From a virus, in the IMG/VR virus record IMGVR_UViG_3300020165_000049, positions 1 through 39,717 of that record: 39,717 nt of DNA; one strand, given 5' to 3'. Position 1 is the first letter of the stretch. The number at the start of each line of letters is the position of its first letter. A model generated the notes under the pieces. That model was not told where the DNA came from and ran no database searches. It was given only the letters and a program-made list of their open reading frames with translations. Positions 3,776 to 19,957 of the stretch are shown in pieces. Made by a program: the position numbers and the translations under genes.

Positions 3776-4816
3776 TTATTTTTCATATGTTGGAAATAAT
3801 GCGAATATATCCTTTAACCATGTTTCTAAATTTCTAATCATTCCTCCTAATTTATCTTCATTATAAAATTGAATAAACATTTTAGGATTAAATTCAGGAA
3901 ATTCTTCTACTATTAAATTCTCTATATGATCTTTTCCTTTATCATCTATCATTGGATTACTTAAATCCATAACTTTATAATTAGTTTCAATTCTAGCTTG
4001 TTCCTGAACTATGCGCGAATATACAACGTGTTCCTTAAATTTCCTAGCAGATATATCAAAAATATCTTGAAGGGTTAATTCTTGTGTTTTTAACTCAGGA
4101 AATTTTTTAAATATACCTTTAGCACCAAGACCTTTAATACCTTGAATATTATCTGAGTTGTCTCCTAATAATGTTTTATGTAAAATAAAATTTGAAGGTA
4201 ATACTCCAATTTTTTCTTCTACAACCTTTGGAGTATAATACTCTTTTTCCATTGGTCTATATACAATAATTTTATCAGTTACTAGCTGTAAGAAATCTTT
4301 ATCACTAGATACTATAAAACAAGTTGAGTTATGTTTTTCTACTAATTTTTCAGCTAACACGGCTATAATATCATCAGCTTCTACTTTATCGAGTATGGTG
4401 GTTTTAACAGGTAATAGCTTTAAATATTGGATTATACGCACTATTTGGTCAATTTTTGAGTCATGTTCTTCCTCAATATTATCAAATGCTTCCCAATTAG
4501 TAATTCGCTGTAGGTTTCTTGTTCCTTTGTATTCGGAGAGCAGGTTCTTACGATTTACTGTTGAACCCGCCCCGTCGAATACTACATAAACAGAAGTTGG
4601 ATTTGTTTGTCTAATCATTGCACCTAAAGAACGGAAGAACCCACCTAATCCACCAATGTGAACTCCATCAGGATTAACCATATTCATCATAGCAAAGTTT
4701 CTAAAAAATAGATTTAAACCATCTAAAATTAATACTTTATCATGTTTTTTTAATATAGTCTCTTCCTGATCTTCTTGGACGCTGTCCAACAAGTTAAATA
4801 ATTCTTTATGTTTCAT
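3776..4816 (-). CDS. rnh: 5'-3' exonuclease / RNase H-like flap nuclease (T4 Rnh type)
   Basis: Removes RNA primers and 5' flaps from lagging-strand DNA. The 346-aa protein shows the acidic cluster of the FEN/PIN-like family: D32 in LILDGLN, D81 in VVFDGAG, E146, D148 and D149 in VEADDI, and D172 and D174 in SSDKDF. A helix-hairpin-helix-type DNA-binding region follows at about 218-234 (GDNSDNIQGIKGLGAKG). T4 Rnh is 305 aa, so the size is similar; the extra length is an N-terminal extension of about 25 charged residues before the first beta strand. The gene lies 9 bases after uvsX and 11 bases before the helicase gene. It could equally be labelled a 5' nuclease; the choice of Rnh reflects the T4-like context. 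Confidence 0.9.
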   Translation of the reverse strand: MKHKELFNLLDSVQEDQEETILKKHDKVLILDGLNLFFRNFAMMNMVNPDGVHIGGLGGFFRSLGAMIRQTNPTSVYVVFDGAGSTVNRKNLLSEYKGTRNLQRITNWEAFDNIEEEHDSKIDQIVRIIQYLKLLPVKTTILDKVEADDIIAVLAEKLVEKHNSTCFIVSSDKDFLQLVTDKIIVYRPMEKEYYTPKVVEEKIGVLPSNFILHKTLLGDNSDNIQGIKGLGAKGIFKKFPELKTQELTLQDIFDISARKFKEHVVYSRIVQEQARIETNYKVMDLSNPMIDDKGKDHIENLIVEEFPEFNPKMFIQFYNEDKLGGMIRNLETWLKDIFALFPTYEK

Positions 4817-4825
4817 GTTTTATTT

Positions 4826-5899
4826 TTAAATGTCCTGCTCGTCGAAGAGTACAGGTGTTACATCTTCTTGGTCTTCTACAATTTTGAATGTTCCTCCACC
4901 TAAGATTTTTGTCCATTCATCTGAATGTAATTTCTTATATGCATTCTTGTCTTTATCAGTATCTGTAATAAAACCATGGTTTGTCATAACAATTTTACCT
5001 CTTGATTGCATACCATTAACATGGTTTTTATCAATTTGTAAGTTTGTTCTTTTACCCCATTCTACTTGCTTACCACCTTTAATTGCTTTAATTTTAGATG
5101 TTCCAGCATTAGATACATTACCAAATGTAACTACGAATGTTGCATCATACCACATAGCCATACCACCTTTATTCATCATCTTTGGTTGTCCCATAGGTGA
5201 TTCTGCTTTAGCGGTCCATACTTTATTAATACAACAAAGTGTATTAGTAAATGGTGATGATTCTTTACGAGACATTACAATACTTTGGTTAACTGTATTA
5301 CCAAATTGAGTTGACATTGCTCCAGCATTCCATTCATTATTATTTTTCAGTTTTTCAACTGACATTGCACAAGGAATAGAACCAATTGAATCCCAAAAGA
5401 ACGCTAAGTCATAAGGTAAATTACCTTTTTTCTGCTCATTTTGTAGATCCATAATAAATGCTGCTACGTCTTCAATTGTATGTAATGTTTCTCTATCAAC
5501 ATAAATAAAGTTACCTTCATAATCTACAACATTACCCTCATCATCTTTGATTAGTTTAACTTCTAATCCCATTTGAGCGGCATGTTCCCAATTCCATTTC
5601 ATCTCAGTAATGATAAAAACAGGTAGTACACCCATTTTTTGTGCCGATACTGCTGCTTCTAATAAAGCAGTTGTTTTACCTGTATCAGAATGCCCTCTAA
5701 GTAATGAAATATGTCCCATTGGAACACCTGGTACTCCAGATATTTCTTGGAAAGCAGGGGATAGGGGTATCCATTTTTGTTCCTTAAATTTGACGTTTTT
5801 ATCTAAACCTTTAGACGATTTAAATTTATTTAAATCAAATTTGCTCTTAATCTCGGCAGACACTGCTGCCGAGAGAGACTTTGATATTTTTTTCGCCAT
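4826..5899 (-). CDS. uvsX: RecA-like recombinase UvsX
   Basis: Forms filaments on ssDNA and drives strand exchange in recombination-dependent replication and repair. The 357-aa length matches the UvsX family. Walker A is GHSDTGKT at 69-76; the Walker B region is LAFFWDSIGSIP at about 160. The N-terminal segment is lysine-rich, and the RecA core has the ATP-site continuation SVEKLKNNNEWN and the loop region around AKAESPMGQPKMMNKGG. The C-terminus is acidic. The start ATG is 2 bases after the gp32 stop, so ssDNA-binding protein and recombinase are made from one message, fitting their known partnership. No UvsY mediator is recognised in this window. Confidence 0.93.
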   Translation of the reverse strand: MAKKISKSLSAAVSAEIKSKFDLNKFKSSKGLDKNVKFKEQKWIPLSPAFQEISGVPGVPMGHISLLRGHSDTGKTTALLEAAVSAQKMGVLPVFIITEMKWNWEHAAQMGLEVKLIKDDEGNVVDYEGNFIYVDRETLHTIEDVAAFIMDLQNEQKKGNLPYDLAFFWDSIGSIPCAMSVEKLKNNNEWNAGAMSTQFGNTVNQSIVMSRKESSPFTNTLCCINKVWTAKAESPMGQPKMMNKGGMAMWYDATFVVTFGNVSNAGTSKIKAIKGGKQVEWGKRTNLQIDKNHVNGMQSRGKIVMTNHGFITDTDKDKNAYKKLHSDEWTKILGGGTFKIVEDQEDVTPVLFDEQDI

Positions 5900-5901
5900 A
5901 T

Positions 5902-6735
5902 TTAGAAAGGAAGATCATCACCATTATTACTATCTTTACTATCAAATAGTGAGTCAAACTTATCTACTTTACTTTGTTTAGCTTTATTAGTATCTAAACT
6001 AAAGTTTGTAGAAGGTGCTGGTGTTGATGTAATAGTAGGACCAACTGCTCCCTCAGAATCTTCTTCCGGAGATAGCCATTTTTCTAATGCAGATTTCATA
6101 TCTTCAAATGAATAACGTTTAAATAACCCATCTGTTGGATTTGGTTGTTCACTTGACCATTTTTCTACTAATGAAGCATCTTCACTAAGAGGTGATGTTT
6201 TTAATCTAACACGTACTGATGATTTATTGTATGGAGTACCAGTTGATTCTGGTCCTACAGTTTCAACTGTAATATCTCTACCATTTACAATATCAGTGTA
6301 ATCACCAATTTCATCATCTACAGCAAGAGCTAATAATTCTTCATATACTTGTTTTCCAAATTGCCATAACCTAACACCTTTATCTTCTTCTCCACGTACT
6401 ACAACGGGAACAAAAGTACGGTTTTTAGCATCTAACTTTTTAGCAAGTACATAATTTTCTTTATTATACTCACCTTCACGTAGTTTTCCAGCAAATAGGG
6501 CAATTGGGTCTTTTTCACCAAAATTGGCTGGTGAAATCATAACCTTATTTGTAATACCATAATAGAACTTAAGTTCAGTAAATGGGTTAGAAGAATCATA
6601 TGCCGATGGCACAATTCTGATTTGTTGTTTACCTACTGTGGGTCTCCAAAAAATTAACGAATAATCGGTCTTTTGACCTCCCTGTGGTTTTGATTGGAGG
6701 GTATCCAATTTCTGCTTTAATGCATTTAAATCCAT
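5902..6735 (-). CDS. gp32: Single-stranded DNA-binding protein, T4 gp32-like, without zinc ligands
   Basis: Coats ssDNA at forks and recombination intermediates and partners UvsX. The 277-aa protein has the gp32 layout: a short basic/helical N-terminus (LKQKLDTLQSK), an OB-type core starting with IFWRPTVGKQQIRIVPS, and a flexible acidic Ser/Asp-rich tail. The whole protein contains no cysteine, so the Cys-His zinc site of T4 gp32 is absent. The last residues DDLPF resemble the acidic tip of bacterial SSB (DDIPF), which is a docking site for host repair proteins; whether it works that way here is inference. It is followed 2 bases later by uvsX. The 72-base gap before it may hold a promoter. 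Identity rests on motif resemblance and gene order. Confidence 0.85.
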   Translation of the reverse strand: MDLNALKQKLDTLQSKPQGGQKTDYSLIFWRPTVGKQQIRIVPSAYDSSNPFTELKFYYGITNKVMISPANFGEKDPIALFAGKLREGEYNKENYVLAKKLDAKNRTFVPVVVRGEEDKGVRLWQFGKQVYEELLALAVDDEIGDYTDIVNGRDITVETVGPESTGTPYNKSSVRVRLKTSPLSEDASLVEKWSSEQPNPTDGLFKRYSFEDMKSALEKWLSPEEDSEGAVGPTITSTPAPSTNFSLDTNKAKQSKVDKFDSLFDSKDSNNGDDLPF

Positions 6736-6807
6736 AATTGTAACTTATTTTTAATTATAACTGTTTATATGTAACCTAATATACGAACTATATTTTGGGG
6801 AGCCAAA
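6736..6807 (-). promoter_or_regulatory. Intergenic leader of gp32, possible promoter
   Basis: This 72-base gap is the only sizeable spacer inside the replication cluster. On the minus strand it carries TTCGTATATT (6778-6787), a 10-mer that also occurs in the intergenic spacer upstream of the 88-aa gene (39075-39084). No hairpin with a U-tract is seen. A promoter or translational operator for gp32 would be expected here by analogy with T4, but the sequence gives only weak support. Confidence 0.25.
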
Positions 6808-7275
6808 CTATAATTCAATAATTCTATGTATTTTTGTATTTAATTGACTAAGTTCATTATGTTGAGTAAGTAAAACACAATTTCTATAATGTTGCCAATC
6901 TACTTTATAATTTGTATCAACAACACCACCATTTAACTTCTTAATGAGTTCATTAAGGGCATTAATAGTATATAAAGTATTAGATTCTTTTTTTCTATGT
7001 ACTAAGATTGTATTATCTGGTATAGTATCTATATTAGCTTGTTCTACATTATATGTAACTACATATTCATCTTTCCCCACAATTTCTAATACAAACATTT
7101 TATTATATATTATACTGTATTTAGATTGTATGTTGTGAATTAGCTCATCCATACCTTCTAGATCTGTGAATGTGCAAAATAATTTATTGTTCAAGTCGCT
7201 TAAATTTTGTAAATTTGTTATAACATCGTATTTCGTGTTATACGTATTAAGCGGTTTCTCCAAAGTTGTAATCAT
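6808..7275 (-). CDS. Conserved-looking phage protein of unknown function, in the replication cluster
   Basis: A 155-aa protein that I cannot assign. No signal peptide, membrane segment, Walker motif or zinc site is visible. The middle is beta-rich (KMFVLEIVGKDEYVVTYN), and the C-terminal third is helical with aromatic residues (TLYTINALNELIKKL, then VDWQHYRNCVLL). Its start lies inside the end of the polymerase gene, overlapping by 29 bases, so translation of the two is probably coupled. It precedes the gp32 leader. Position suggests a replication-accessory role, perhaps a polymerase partner, but that is inference from neighbourhood only. Confidence 0.75.
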   Translation of the reverse strand: MITTLEKPLNTYNTKYDVITNLQNLSDLNNKLFCTFTDLEGMDELIHNIQSKYSIIYNKMFVLEIVGKDEYVVTYNVEQANIDTIPDNTILVHRKKESNTLYTINALNELIKKLNGGVVDTNYKVDWQHYRNCVLLTQHNELSQLNTKIHRIIEL

Positions 7276-15994: not shown

Positions 15995-18331
15995 CTAAGG
16001 GGAAATTTCATAAGTGTTCATTGATACTGCAGTACCCATTTTTTCTGCATCCATAGTAACTGTACCTTGTGTTGAAGCTATTCTTCTTAATAAAGTATTA
16101 GTTTGTGCCTGCAATTCTTCTAATCTTTTCATTGCTGTTGCACTCATACCACCTCCACCACCACCACTTTGGGCATTAGCTAAAGCTTTTGATGCCCCAG
16201 GGGCGGCTACAATATCATCATTTGAAGAAAGTTCAAATAAACCTCCTTCTTTAGTAGAAATTTGTGTTTTACCATCAGCTGGAGAATTTACATCACCTGC
16301 TTTTAAATATTTATATCCTAATGCAAGGGCTGCAGCACCTGCTATTGCTGCTAATGCTGGTCCTACAACAGGTGTCATCGCTGCGGATTTTGCTGCTGTA
16401 ATAGCTAAACCACCTACATCTTTTGCTGCTGATGCTGCTTTCATAGCAGCATTTCTTTTCTCCAACATCAAGGATATTTTCTGGTATGTTTGGTAACCTT
16501 TGTAAGCCCCTACAACAGCTAAAATTAAAGATAAATTTTTCTGAGCAAATACAGTTAAATCAGTCATGGTTTGTAAAATAGGTGTAAGAAGTTTTCCCAT
16601 TTCCGTAAAAGTCTCATTCATTTTTTCAGAGGCTAAAGCCATTCTTTCTTGTTCTGAGGCCTGATTGAATAGGTTTTCTAATGTACCTGCTTCTTGGGCT
16701 TCCATAGCAGCAGCTAAACCATGTTTTTCTATAGCAATATCTAATTTTTTCTGTTCTTCTTTAGCTTGTTCTCCGGTTAATCCTTGTAATTGTTCTTGGG
16801 TAAATAGAGTTTGAGCTAAATCTTCTCTAGACATACCAACGGCAGCAGCTAAAGCTTGTTGTTGGATTCTATTCATTTCAGCAAACTCAGCAGCTGATCC
16901 TGCTTCTTTAGATATTTCTTCTGCTACTGTAGCTAAGTCATTATTTAGAGCTGCAGTTCTTGCTTTTTCTAAATTAAGATTTTTACCAAGTAACAATTCA
17001 GCTTCCATTTCTTTTTCAATAGAAGATTCAAAATCAAGTAAACTATCAGCTATACCTTCTACTTTAGACATTTCCATACCTAATGCTTTTGCTGTAGCAA
17101 CTGCATTTGCTATTGCCTTTGGGTTTTTACCTAATGATAAAGTTGTAGCTGCAGATAGTTTAGATACATCCGCCATTAATTTTTTTTCATTTAGTAATAC
17201 TCCTTTTTTTAATGATGCGGATTTTGCTTGAGCTAAGAATTCTCCAGTCATTTTTTCCATATCTTTACCAGTAGCAAAAGATAGCTTACCAATACCCATC
17301 ATTTGTTCTTGGGTCATTCCTGCTAAATTTTCCATTTTAGAAAATGTAGCTAATGTTTTAGCACTTATAGCAGTTGAAGTACCCAATTCAGCATTAATAG
17401 CTTTTAAAGCATGTTTTTGTCCCTCATAAGTAACACCAATACTATCAGATTCTTTAGAAGTTTTTAACATTTCTGCAGATAATTTACCTGCTTCTTTAGT
17501 ACTTATATTTAGACCTTTAGCTATTTCTCCAGCAGATTTATCTGCTTTCACCATACCCTGGAATACTTTTAAAAGAATAGCCATTGGGCCAAATGCTTTC
17601 ATTAGTTCACCCGCTCCTGCAGATAACCCTTTTAATCCTGCTTTAAATTTATCTAATCCGGTTAAAGAACTAGCTATACCATCCTCATTAATAGTAACCA
17701 TAGAGGCTGCTGCTAATTTAGATGCTTCAGCTGCTTTATCAAATCCTTTAGTTAAACCCTTAATTCCTGGAATGACTCCTGCTATATCAGATAAAAACCC
17801 AAATGCTTTAGATGGAGGTAAAGCAGATATCTGGTTAGAGGCTTTAGCCATAGAAGCTAATGATTCTTCACCTGCTCTTAAGTTAGATTTTTGTTCAAGA
17901 AGATCCCCAGCAGTTTTTTCACTAGCTTTTGCTTGGGCCTCCATAGCCTTAAGTTGTTTGACAGTTAAGGTATCTATGTTAGCTTCAGAATCTTCTCTAA
18001 TTTTTCGAGCTTTTGATAAAAGATTTGCAGCGTTTAATTCTAATTTATTTTGGGAAGCTTTACTTGAAGCTAAAGTATCATTTAATTTCTTAGAATCTAA
18101 TAAAGCTTTAACCCCTTGTTTTGCATAATCTACTTGTAGTTCAGAAGCTTTATTGATTTCGTTTAAAGCATTTCTTATAGATTTTTTAGCATCTAATTGT
18201 CCATTAATACCTTTTAACCCTTCACGAATAACATCATTAATGTCTCGATTTAAATCAAGGTTTAACCTTTGGACCTGGGTTAGATCCTCTGCTGCTTTTA
18301 CTTGTTTGTTTATCTCTTCAGAATTTGACAT
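15995..18331 (-). CDS. Tape measure protein
   Basis: Sets tail length and is ejected ahead of the DNA. The 778-aa protein is overwhelmingly helical and rich in Ala, Lys, Glu and Leu, with long coiled-coil stretches in residues 1-170 and a regular Ala/Lys/Met-rich middle. Two hydrophobic stretches near the C-terminus (LSLILAVVGAYKGYQ, then TPVVGPALAAIAGAAALALG) are typical membrane-inserting segments of tape measures. A short glycine run and a final helix follow. It sits immediately after the gp26/frameshift-ORF pair and is preceded by an exact late motif 10 bases before the ATG. In T4 the corresponding protein is gp29 (590 aa); sequence resemblance to gp29 is not obvious, so the call rests on composition and position. 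Confidence 0.85.
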   Translation of the reverse strand: MSNSEEINKQVKAAEDLTQVQRLNLDLNRDINDVIREGLKGINGQLDAKKSIRNALNEINKASELQVDYAKQGVKALLDSKKLNDTLASSKASQNKLELNAANLLSKARKIREDSEANIDTLTVKQLKAMEAQAKASEKTAGDLLEQKSNLRAGEESLASMAKASNQISALPPSKAFGFLSDIAGVIPGIKGLTKGFDKAAEASKLAAASMVTINEDGIASSLTGLDKFKAGLKGLSAGAGELMKAFGPMAILLKVFQGMVKADKSAGEIAKGLNISTKEAGKLSAEMLKTSKESDSIGVTYEGQKHALKAINAELGTSTAISAKTLATFSKMENLAGMTQEQMMGIGKLSFATGKDMEKMTGEFLAQAKSASLKKGVLLNEKKLMADVSKLSAATTLSLGKNPKAIANAVATAKALGMEMSKVEGIADSLLDFESSIEKEMEAELLLGKNLNLEKARTAALNNDLATVAEEISKEAGSAAEFAEMNRIQQQALAAAVGMSREDLAQTLFTQEQLQGLTGEQAKEEQKKLDIAIEKHGLAAAMEAQEAGTLENLFNQASEQERMALASEKMNETFTEMGKLLTPILQTMTDLTVFAQKNLSLILAVVGAYKGYQTYQKISLMLEKRNAAMKAASAAKDVGGLAITAAKSAAMTPVVGPALAAIAGAAALALGYKYLKAGDVNSPADGKTQISTKEGGLFELSSNDDIVAAPGASKALANAQSGGGGGGMSATAMKRLEELQAQTNTLLRRIASTQGTVTMDAEKMGTAVSMNTYEISP

Positions 18332-18368: not shown

Positions 18369-18662
18369 CTATTTATAGCTGCTTTTTCCTTTATAGGGTT
18401 GAGAGGCCCTAGTAAAAGCTGGAGTATTGATCTTACCATCTTTCCCAATTAAAGTTTCTTTTCCTTTTTCTTGGAGTGGAGCAGAAGATTTTTTATTAAA
18501 ATTTTTAATTTCTGAAAATATATATTTTCTTAACCATATAGGAATATTATATACAGTATTAAAATCATAACCTCCATTGCCATGGTAGATTATTTGATGT
18601 AAATGGTTAAATAGATTTAATCTAATTGCAGGTGCATTATCAAGCGTCAGGCCAAAAAAAGT
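18369..18662 (-). CDS. Downstream frameshift ORF of the gp26-like gene (hub/tail assembly chaperone extension, gp51 position)
   Basis: An open frame of 97 codons, from just after an in-frame TAA (18663-18665) to a TAG at 18369-18371, overlapping the end of the gp26-like gene in the +1 (equivalently -2) frame. Reading the codons one by one I find no ATG, GTG or TTG, so normal initiation is unlikely. The protein looks real: LFNHLHQIIYHGNGGYDFNT, then VYNIPIWLRKYIFSEI and a basic tail ending GKSSYK. The overlap has a run of seven U read as UUU UUU UGG, where a ribosome can slip +1 or -2. The position between tube and tape measure is where lambda-type and many myophage chaperones use frameshifting; in T4, gene 51 follows gene 26. 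The first codons shown are the earliest possible; the true product would be a gp26 fusion. Confidence 0.75.
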   Translation of the reverse strand, partial: TFFGLTLDNAPAIRLNLFNHLHQIIYHGNGGYDFNTVYNIPIWLRKYIFSEIKNFNKKSSAPLQEKGKETLIGKDGKINTPAFTRASQPYKGKSSYK

Positions 18663-19368
18663 TTAATCCCAGAGGGACTTCTACCTCCCTTCCATTGTCT
18701 AAAGTGACGGTCATATCAACATCTGGTTGAGAGCTTTTTAAATGTTCTCTAAAGGCTCTAGAATCTCTAGCTAACATATACCCGTCAACAAACTCTCTGA
18801 TAGATTTAGAATCCTCATCACCATTAACAGAAATTATTATATGTTTTAATCTAGTTGTTAATTCAGGTACATTATCTTTTTGGATTTTCTTTAATCCCTT
18901 TAATTCAGCTTCTATTTTAGCATTATCATGACCATTTAGTAGTTTATAAGTAATTTTAGTACCACTATGAGGTAAAGTATAAGCAAGTTCATTTTTTCCT
19001 TCAATTAATACTGAAGGGTCAAATGGTTTGTTTTCTAATTCAGTTAAATCTACATCTTGTATTTCTCCTTCATATGTGATATGATATTTTTTACCATACC
19101 CTAAAATACGAGTTGCAATTAGTAAAGCATTTTTATCTCCTATAAGTAAATCTTTTAATTTTATAGATTTATCTATAATAACGGATTCAAGTACTTTATC
19201 TAAGACTGTTCCTTTTTGAATATAGGATTGATTAGTTAAAATATCTTCTTCCTTAGCGGTCATATATTTAATTTCTACTTTACCACTAGATAAGGGGTTG
19301 TCTTTAGGATATAATAATCCTCCAGAGGGTAAGTCTACTTCTTCAGTTGGGAATTTAAATTCACTCAT
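18640..19368 (-). CDS. gp26: Baseplate hub assembly protein, gp26-like (T4_baseplate family)
   Basis: A 242-aa protein with the characteristic N-terminal signature of the gp26 family: VDLPSGGLLYP, then VEIKYMTAKEEDIL and a helical segment with ATRILGYGKKY, followed by a beta-strand region and a helical C-terminal half. T4 gp26 (208 aa) is needed for hub assembly and is not abundant in the virion. The gene is first after the terminator that follows the tube gene, and a possible promoter lies at 19398-19412. Its end overlaps a second ORF in another frame (18369-18662) at a run of seven U, so a minor longer product is probable. The functional label comes from family resemblance plus position between tube and tape measure. 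Confidence 0.85.
   Translation of the reverse strand: MSEFKFPTEEVDLPSGGLLYPKDNPLSSGKVEIKYMTAKEEDILTNQSYIQKGTVLDKVLESVIIDKSIKLKDLLIGDKNALLIATRILGYGKKYHITYEGEIQDVDLTELENKPFDPSVLIEGKNELAYTLPHSGTKITYKLLNGHDNAKIEAELKGLKKIQKDNVPELTTRLKHIIISVNGDEDSKSIREFVDGYMLARDSRAFREHLKSSQPDVDMTVTLDNGREVEVPLGLNFFWPDA
18654..18660 (-). other. Candidate ribosomal slippery site (U7)
   Basis: On the minus strand the gp26-like reading frame runs AAC UUU UUU UGG CCU GAC GCU UGA. The seven U allow the P-site Phe tRNA to re-pair after a +1 or a -2 slip; either leads into the 97-codon downstream frame, while a -1 slip ends after two codons (UUG GCC UGA). I did not find an obvious strong stem-loop directly downstream. Confidence 0.55.
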
Positions 19369-19468: not shown

Positions 19469-19957
19469 TTAGAAATTTAACACACAATAATCTGGTTGTA
19501 CAGTGAAAGTTAATTCCTGTGCGGCATCAGCATCTTCCCATGAATAATCTCCAAATGAAGCATCTATAATCATTGCCCCCTTAATTATCCATTCTGATAC
19601 TACATCACCTACTGGTCCTAATACATTAAATGTAAGATCTTTTTTATAGAAATCACTATACCCATCTCTACCTGTTACAGATTCATGGTGTAGTCTTACC
19701 CATTCCATAACGGCTTGAGCACCTGATGGTGTAATTGGATCAAATAATGTGAATTGAACGGTATTCCACACTGTTTTACCTTTGACATAACGTTGTACGT
19801 TGATGTGGTTAAGTGCTACACTACCTTGCGTTAACGACACAGCTCCTACACCTTTTACCATGTATGATGGAAACCCATCTATATACATAATAAATCTGTT
19901 CTTTTGTTTTGGCTCAAAGGCTGTAAAAAATATTTCGTTTGGATCTAATATTGCCAT
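19469..19957 (-). CDS. gp19: Tail tube protein gp19
   Basis: Polymerises into the inner tail tube through which DNA passes. The 162-aa length is almost that of T4 gp19 (163 aa). The start of the protein, with FEPKQKNRFIMYIDGFPSYM, and the strands WNTVQFTLFDPITPSGAQAV and WIIKGAMIIDASFGDYSW, are typical of the gp19 family, ending with the strand LTFTVQPDYCVLNF. It follows the sheath gene by 43 bases, the conserved gp18-gp19 order, with an exact late motif in between (19970-19985) and a strong terminator after it. This is one of the most secure assignments here. Confidence 0.95.
   Translation of the reverse strand: MAILDPNEIFFTAFEPKQKNRFIMYIDGFPSYMVKGVGAVSLTQGSVALNHINVQRYVKGKTVWNTVQFTLFDPITPSGAQAVMEWVRLHHESVTGRDGYSDFYKKDLTFNVLGPVGDVVSEWIIKGAMIIDASFGDYSWEDADAAQELTFTVQPDYCVLNF

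Follow-up and report, generated by a model that had tools for sequence, protein, structure and literature searches.

The closest described systems are the tail-assembly chaperones gpG and gpGT of phage lambda and the G-T pairs of other long-tailed phages. The two frames lie between the tube or major tail gene and the tape-measure gene, a -1 slip near the end of G gives two products with one N-terminus, and the T frame has no start codon. A review describes this frameshift as widely conserved among long-tailed phages 'except T4' (PMC5009743). The same review covers the tail chaperone shifts of phage Mu (-2) and of the haloarchaeal myovirus HSTV-2 (likely +1). In T4 there are two separate genes and no frameshift: gp26 and gp51 are hub assembly chaperones (PF12322), and gp51 is essential and of unknown function (PMC3004832). 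Forward shifting is known from bacterial prfB, where a Shine-Dalgarno (SD)-like AGGGGG precedes CUU UGA and CUU U is the slip codon (PMC12421855). In designed constructs with a CUUUGA site, a hairpin placed against the E site acts like the internal SD duplex: on 70S ribosomes it promotes +1 shifting and reduces shifting to -1 (PMC6321510).

How does the present locus compare with these systems? It lies in a stretch of marine phage DNA of 39,717 nucleotides (IMG/VR record IMGVR_UViG_3300020165_000049), referred to below as the window. Its features are as follows.

19469-19957, minus strand: tail tube protein, directly upstream of G (phrog_4542, E 3.7e-22)
18640-19368, minus strand: G, the gp26-like (phrog_150 'baseplate hub') protein, ATG start, 242 aa, the proposed chaperone product of unshifted reading
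18683-18688, minus strand: GGAGGU, SD-like, ending 22 nt 5' of the run of seven U (U7)
18665-18679, minus strand: hairpin AGUCCC-UCU-GGGAUU, 6 bp including one G-U, ending 4 nt 5' of U7
18646-18660, minus strand: putative frameshift site UUUUUUUGGCCUGAC, read UUU UUU UGG CCU GAC in the 0 frame and ... GGC CUG AC in the +1 frame
18372-18662, minus strand: proposed T extension, start-less +1 frame of 97 codons, stop at 18369-18371
15995-18331, minus strand: tape-measure protein, directly downstream of T (match to the immuto tape measure)

The locus resembles lambda in its position, in the start-less T frame, in the slip near the end of G and in the two predicted products with one N-terminus. It differs from lambda in that the shift would be +1 rather than -1, the site is U7GG, a hairpin lies on the 5' side, and the G domain is of the T4 gp26 family. 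In Mu and HSTV-2 the same frame is entered for the same purpose; the site here is different and highly conserved, and it belongs to genes of the gp26 family (our comparison did not extend to the proteins of Mu and HSTV-2). With prfB the locus shares a YUU U slip codon and a duplex on the mRNA exit side, whereas the A-site codon is a sense codon (UGG, UAC) instead of a stop, and a hairpin replaces the SD sequence 3 nt upstream, GGAGGU being 22 nt away. The hairpin abutting the E site is common to the designed constructs and to the window, which would be a natural phage case. Our reading is that a programmed frameshift leads into the T frame, and that the gp26-like gene and the start-less frame are G and T of a tail-assembly chaperone. 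There are no protein or reporter data for it, and on the comparative evidence we consider it very likely.

A start-less frame between the gp26-like and tape-measure genes

The T frame (18369-18662 with its stop, minus strand) has no ATG, GTG or TTG in its 97 codons. It is the sole start-less frame of at least 90 codons on the coding strand of the window, and it fills the gap of 308 bases between the gp26-like and tape-measure genes. Between the ORFs counted for this purpose only one gap is longer (886 bases), and it contains a 289-aa ORF with a TTG start. The 3' end of the gp26-like gene reads AAC UUU UUU UGG CCU GAC GCU UGA, and the T frame is +1 (equally, -2) relative to this gene, while the -1 frame at the junction reads UUU UUG GCC UGA and stops after two codons. 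The string UUUUUUUGG has a single occurrence on the coding strand of the window. The order tube, G, T, tape measure is shown both here and in Flavobacterium phage immuto, to whose tape measure the protein at 15995-18331 is 32% identical over 334 aa (E 8e-30).

An earlier note, made from the sequence alone, had proposed a programmed frameshift at this place, and its description of the locus held. This applies to the start-less 97-codon frame overlapping the gp26-like gene, to the only gene-free gap over 300 bases (the 886-base gap holds the TTG-start ORF), to the UUU UUU UGG from which a +1 or -2 slip enters the second ORF (the -1 stop, described as immediate, comes two codons on), and to the location between tube and tape measure. 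The upstream hairpin and the SD-like element were absent from it and are newly found here.

Conservation of the proposed slip site and of the second protein

Is this arrangement kept in other phages? In a scan of viral contigs the gp26-like protein was confirmed at 594 places, of which 80 were kept, and the second frame at 54; a profile scan of the second frame gave at least 600 places. Junction, frame and second protein are kept in more than 100 homologous loci, and a non-redundant set of 70 homologues (less than 95% identical DNA) was formed. The isolated relatives are immuto (59% identity) and Microcystis phage Mel-JY01 (42%); jumbo phages, Rhodothermus phage RM378 and SP-15-like phages are more distant. 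Four copies occur in genome collections, all in metagenome-assembled genomes (MAGs), three of which are named Flavobacteriaceae, Flavobacteriales and Winogradskyella. Only 2 of the 27 window genes have an SD-like motif of even 4 bases before the start. Because of these names and the scarcity of SD-like motifs, we infer that the host is likely a member of Bacteroidota.

The slip site is in the gene's frame in all 103 distinct homologues. UUU UUU UGG CCU GAC is constant in the 70 non-redundant homologues with the sole exception of CUU for the second UUU in immuto, the first codon being UUU in 70/70. The variant UUU CUU UGG, found in immuto and in two further relatives (L282 and L303), contains the prfB slip codon CUU U. 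Wobble changes were counted on a tree for which only the remainder of the gene was used. There were 0 third-position changes at the F, F, P and D codons of the site, against 2-5 at other conserved F codons, 11-27 at P (the hairpin Pro, with 14, set apart) and 3-14 at D. Dual coding can account for the constant P and D codons, because the +1 frame reads GLT there and is invariant too. The third bases of the two Phe codons are unread in the +1 frame after the slip, and their constancy therefore points to the slip itself; taken alone, these two codons give modest support, since few changes are expected there. The base 5' of U7 is C in 63 of 69 relatives. The +1 frame is shown to be kept down to 23% identity, as in RM378, whose site UUUUUUUGG is again UUU UUU UGG. 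It is kept as well in SP-15 (UUUUUUCAC), in GXN1 (UUCUUUCGU, UUC UUU CGU), in LR756508 (AAC UUU CUA) and at the further distant sites UUUUUUUAC, UUCUUUUAC, UUUCUUUGG and CUUUUUUGG.

Some individual sites depart from this pattern. In L274 the gp26-like gene ends with UUC UUC UGG and the T frame is in -1, which may be a different site or a sequence error. In L315 (a Winogradskyella MAG) and L289 the site is UUU UUU UUC, that is, U8 with Phe in the A site, and L315 has little or no hairpin.

Could the run act in transcription instead? RNA polymerase would then slip on T7, and ribosomes would read the altered mRNA without changing frame. The T7 run itself speaks for this. However, immuto, L282 and L303 (TTTCTTTGG) and L279 (TTCTTTTAC) have no long run and still keep the frame and the domain; moreover, the run is held at seven with the C before it, and is not lengthened. 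Because the runs are interrupted in relatives, transcriptional slippage is disfavoured, and we consider it very unlikely.

The second protein is under selection. Third positions account for 61% of the changes in the T frame, and dN/dS has a median of 0.12 (172 pairs), which shows purifying selection. The invariant residues include G L T, H, G, Y, P, W, L and R; in the aligned T family they are H22, G30, Y38, P41, W43, L44 and R45. The length of T is similar across more than 100 loci. These observations all but exclude that the second frame is an untranslated, decayed gene, for which one could cite the absence of a start codon and of any family match: in Pfam and phrog profile searches T had no match below E 0.02. 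The best Pfam match was weak (DUF6760, E 0.02), and a search for DUF6760 in the window's own record and 14 control genomes found nothing. The earlier note had called the product a plausible folded protein. Selection at the protein level is found; the AlphaFold model of T alone (G and T were folded apart) is poor, with pLDDT 63.

A start of its own is the next possibility: the T frame could be translated independently from a non-standard or TTG start, with GGAGGU assisting. In favour of it, GGAGGU is conserved 22 nt before U7, and an in-frame start about 4-13 nt after an SD-like motif exists in 26/69 relatives. Against it, the window has a UAA in the T frame just 5' of U7 with no ATG, GTG or TTG beyond. 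In addition, 19 of 69 relatives lack any ATG, GTG or TTG before T codon 19, and 30 of 69 lack a start codon upstream of U7, so independent initiation cannot be the common mechanism. The rarity of SD-like motifs before the window genes speaks against it as well, and a separate start would not account for the lack of synonymous changes at UUU UUU. We judge this rival to be very unlikely. The frameshift at U7 is thus supported by comparison, through the conserved U7, the +1 frame, the selection on T and the lack of a usable start in many relatives. The earlier note had held that it would be refuted by homologues with a normal start for the second ORF or by a U run that is not conserved; no shared start was found and the run is conserved.

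The GGAGGU element itself has been assigned no role. It is present in 53 of 69 relatives, and of the 56 relatives with GGAGG, 53 show the spacing of 22, although these phages do not use SD sequences at starts. The Glu codons at the element are GAG in 52/52 and 54/54, while GAG makes up about 12% of the Glu codons in the window. A divergent group that retains U7 and mostly the hairpin is missing it. The GGAGAGGAGGU element does not pair with distant downstream sequence any better than controls do (-10.96 vs -11.05). Pairing of this purine tract with U7 was considered and rejected; it would leave GAG over GAA unexplained. A 3' stimulator was also rejected, as downstream folding was only slightly above synonymous controls (-5.2 vs -4.4; -14.3 vs -12.5) and unconvincing.

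Direction of the proposed shift and the upstream hairpin

In the proposed mechanism, most ribosomes would read G and stop at the UGA (18640). A fraction of them, with peptidyl-tRNA-Phe on the second UUU and UGG waiting in the A site, would move forward by one base (UUU U -> UUU) and continue with GGC CUG ..., so that a 332-aa G-T fusion is made. On arrival of the ribosome at the site, a small hairpin would refold just behind the E-site codon, where the internal SD duplex sits in prfB, and push the frame forward.

Is the shift +1 or -2? The earlier note left both possible, and U7 itself permits both alike. The alternative is a -2 slip on U7, of the kind found in phage Mu, which would lead into the T frame with one extra Phe (FFFG, not FFG); the junction peptide would read LNFFGLTLDNAPAIR after +1 and LNFFFGLTLDNAPAIR after -2. 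Several points favour -2. It is permitted by U7 in the core group and by the sites of SP-15 and LIS04, and the first UUU, constant throughout the core sequences, is needed by -2 and not by +1. The site of Listeria phage LIS04, UUUUUUAGU (UUU UUU AGU), even re-pairs better in -2 than in +1, so that -2 is not excluded everywhere. However, several distant relatives keep the frame at sites where -2 cannot re-pair (UUCUUUUAC, UUCUUUCGU and AACUUUCUA). In L279 (UUC UUU UAC) and in the GXN1 and LR756508 sites given above, tRNA-Phe re-pairs one base forward and not two back, where it would mismatch; -2 re-pairing is thus possible in the core group and not in all members. A hairpin at the E site would also push forward and attenuate backward slips (PMC6321510). 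For these reasons the -2 rival is unlikely, and +1, given that shifting occurs, is the likely direction, an inference from comparison that narrows the earlier alternative.

The hairpin is shown by comparison. In relatives a hairpin of 4-6 bp is re-formed in several registers via linked synonymous changes: GCCC-AUU-GGGC, AGUCC-CUAUU-GGACU and AUCCC-AAUA-GGGAU are found besides the AGUCCC-UCU-GGGAUU of the window, and in most cases 3-5 nt separate its end from U7. Folding energy was averaged over 48 distinct 24-nt haplotypes: the mean is -5.38 kcal/mol, compared with -2.11 +/- 0.20 after synonymous re-sampling and -4.16 +/- 0.18 after permutation of codons within columns. The hairpin region is the strongest 24-nt stretch of its sort in the 600 bases 5' of the site. 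A sister group whose sites are UUUUUUUAC and UUUUUUUGG also folds more strongly than controls, with a mean of -4.73 against -2.46 +/- 0.19. Because the haplotypes are related, these comparisons cannot be taken as probabilities. The hairpin is short or absent in about 10 of the 70 homologues.

What might the hairpin do? Its role is inferred only, and we lean, without much margin, towards its acting as a frameshift stimulator. Flavobacterium johnsoniae shows poor shifting at the SD-driven prfB motif (PMC12421855), and a hairpin in place of the SD sequence would suit hosts of this kind.

Codon usage is one of the points that count against the shift. The +1 A-site codon GGC is rare in the window (2.2 per 1000), less frequent than UGG (8.4), and the site therefore does not obey the 'hungry codon' rule. 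Such sites would be skipped by the predictor PRFect, because its stated rule demands that of the two codons the +1 A-site codon is the commoner.

The proposed G and T and the gp26/gp51 pair of T4-like phages

The earlier note had taken the first gene for a T4-like hub chaperone. We refine this label: the gp26-like protein is best read as the tail-assembly chaperone G, and the second ORF as its T extension. G matches phrog_150 (E 4.5e-8), the family of T4 gp26. Pfam PF12322 does not match the window G protein; it does match its distant relative in SP-15 (1.5e-28). The AlphaFold model of G has pLDDT 90.9, and its top PDB match is the HK97 tail assembly chaperone 2ob9 in both Foldseek (E 0.7) and VIA-align (Z 4.2, 84 residues). 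The match is weak. Only 5 solved-structure entries reached a VIA Z of at least 2, with the HK97 chaperone first. The products are best read as G and GT chaperones by inference; their ratio, their binding to tape measure and tube and their absence from the virion are without protein data. By analogy with lambda, the tape measure would be coated by G domains, and the few GT molecules would use their T part to recruit tube subunits.

T4 gp26 (6.7e-71) and T4 gp51 (2.6e-84), both PF12322, also belong to phrog_150. In the T4 genome they are paralogues at 5803-6429 (minus strand) and 6480-7229 (plus strand). A further C-terminal region, present in T4 gp51, matches phrog_634 (1.2e-23), as does a -1-frame extension of gp26 in Methylophilales phage Melnitz (1.3e-27). 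P-HM1, S-H25, Milchi and phiAS5 each have, at the end of gp26, a -1 frame that runs on as gp51 (as annotated, or its equivalent); it opens at GAU/AGU UUU UUC, a standard U UUU UUC -1 heptamer. These junctions appear to be unannotated -1 frameshifts; no report of gp26/gp51 frameshifting was found in the open-access literature searched. In profile comparisons the window T gave E 6e-4 (probability 29%) with the T4-like T set and E 1.4e-4 (probability 52%) with the SP-15-like set, over about 60 columns each.

The simplest reading, with modest profile support, is one G/GT system in the T4 supergroup, realized via +1, via -1 or, in T4, via two genes. That T4 encodes G (gp26) and GT (gp51) as separate genes seems to us slightly the better bet. 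A bolder reading sees here a natural phage +1 cassette, in which a hairpin abutting the E site replaces the internal SD sequence in phages without SD use, within a G/GT system spanning the T4 supergroup (by a +1 shift here, by a -1 shift in cyanophages at U UUU UUC, and by gene duplication in T4, with gp26 as G and gp51 as GT); we would not wager on it either way. If true, gp26-type proteins act as G chaperones and the C-terminal domains of the gp51 type act as T, the two being linked by +1 here, by -1 in cyanophages and by in-frame fusion in T4. This would suggest where the missing frameshift of T4-type phages lies, and would supply a +1 site of natural origin at which the A-site codon is a sense codon and a hairpin lies upstream.

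Some further loci may be mentioned. In immuto the conserved T extension runs where GenBank has only an ORF of 36 codons from a late ATG, annotated 'hypothetical' (KNV73_gp038, 4839-4949). In XacN1 (near 4780) a T-like frame comes after the gp26-like gene in -1, the site being GCU UUU UUU AUU. In Kuttervirus Marshall and Vibrio phage D506 a T-like frame is likewise in -1, at sites that are not standard heptamers.
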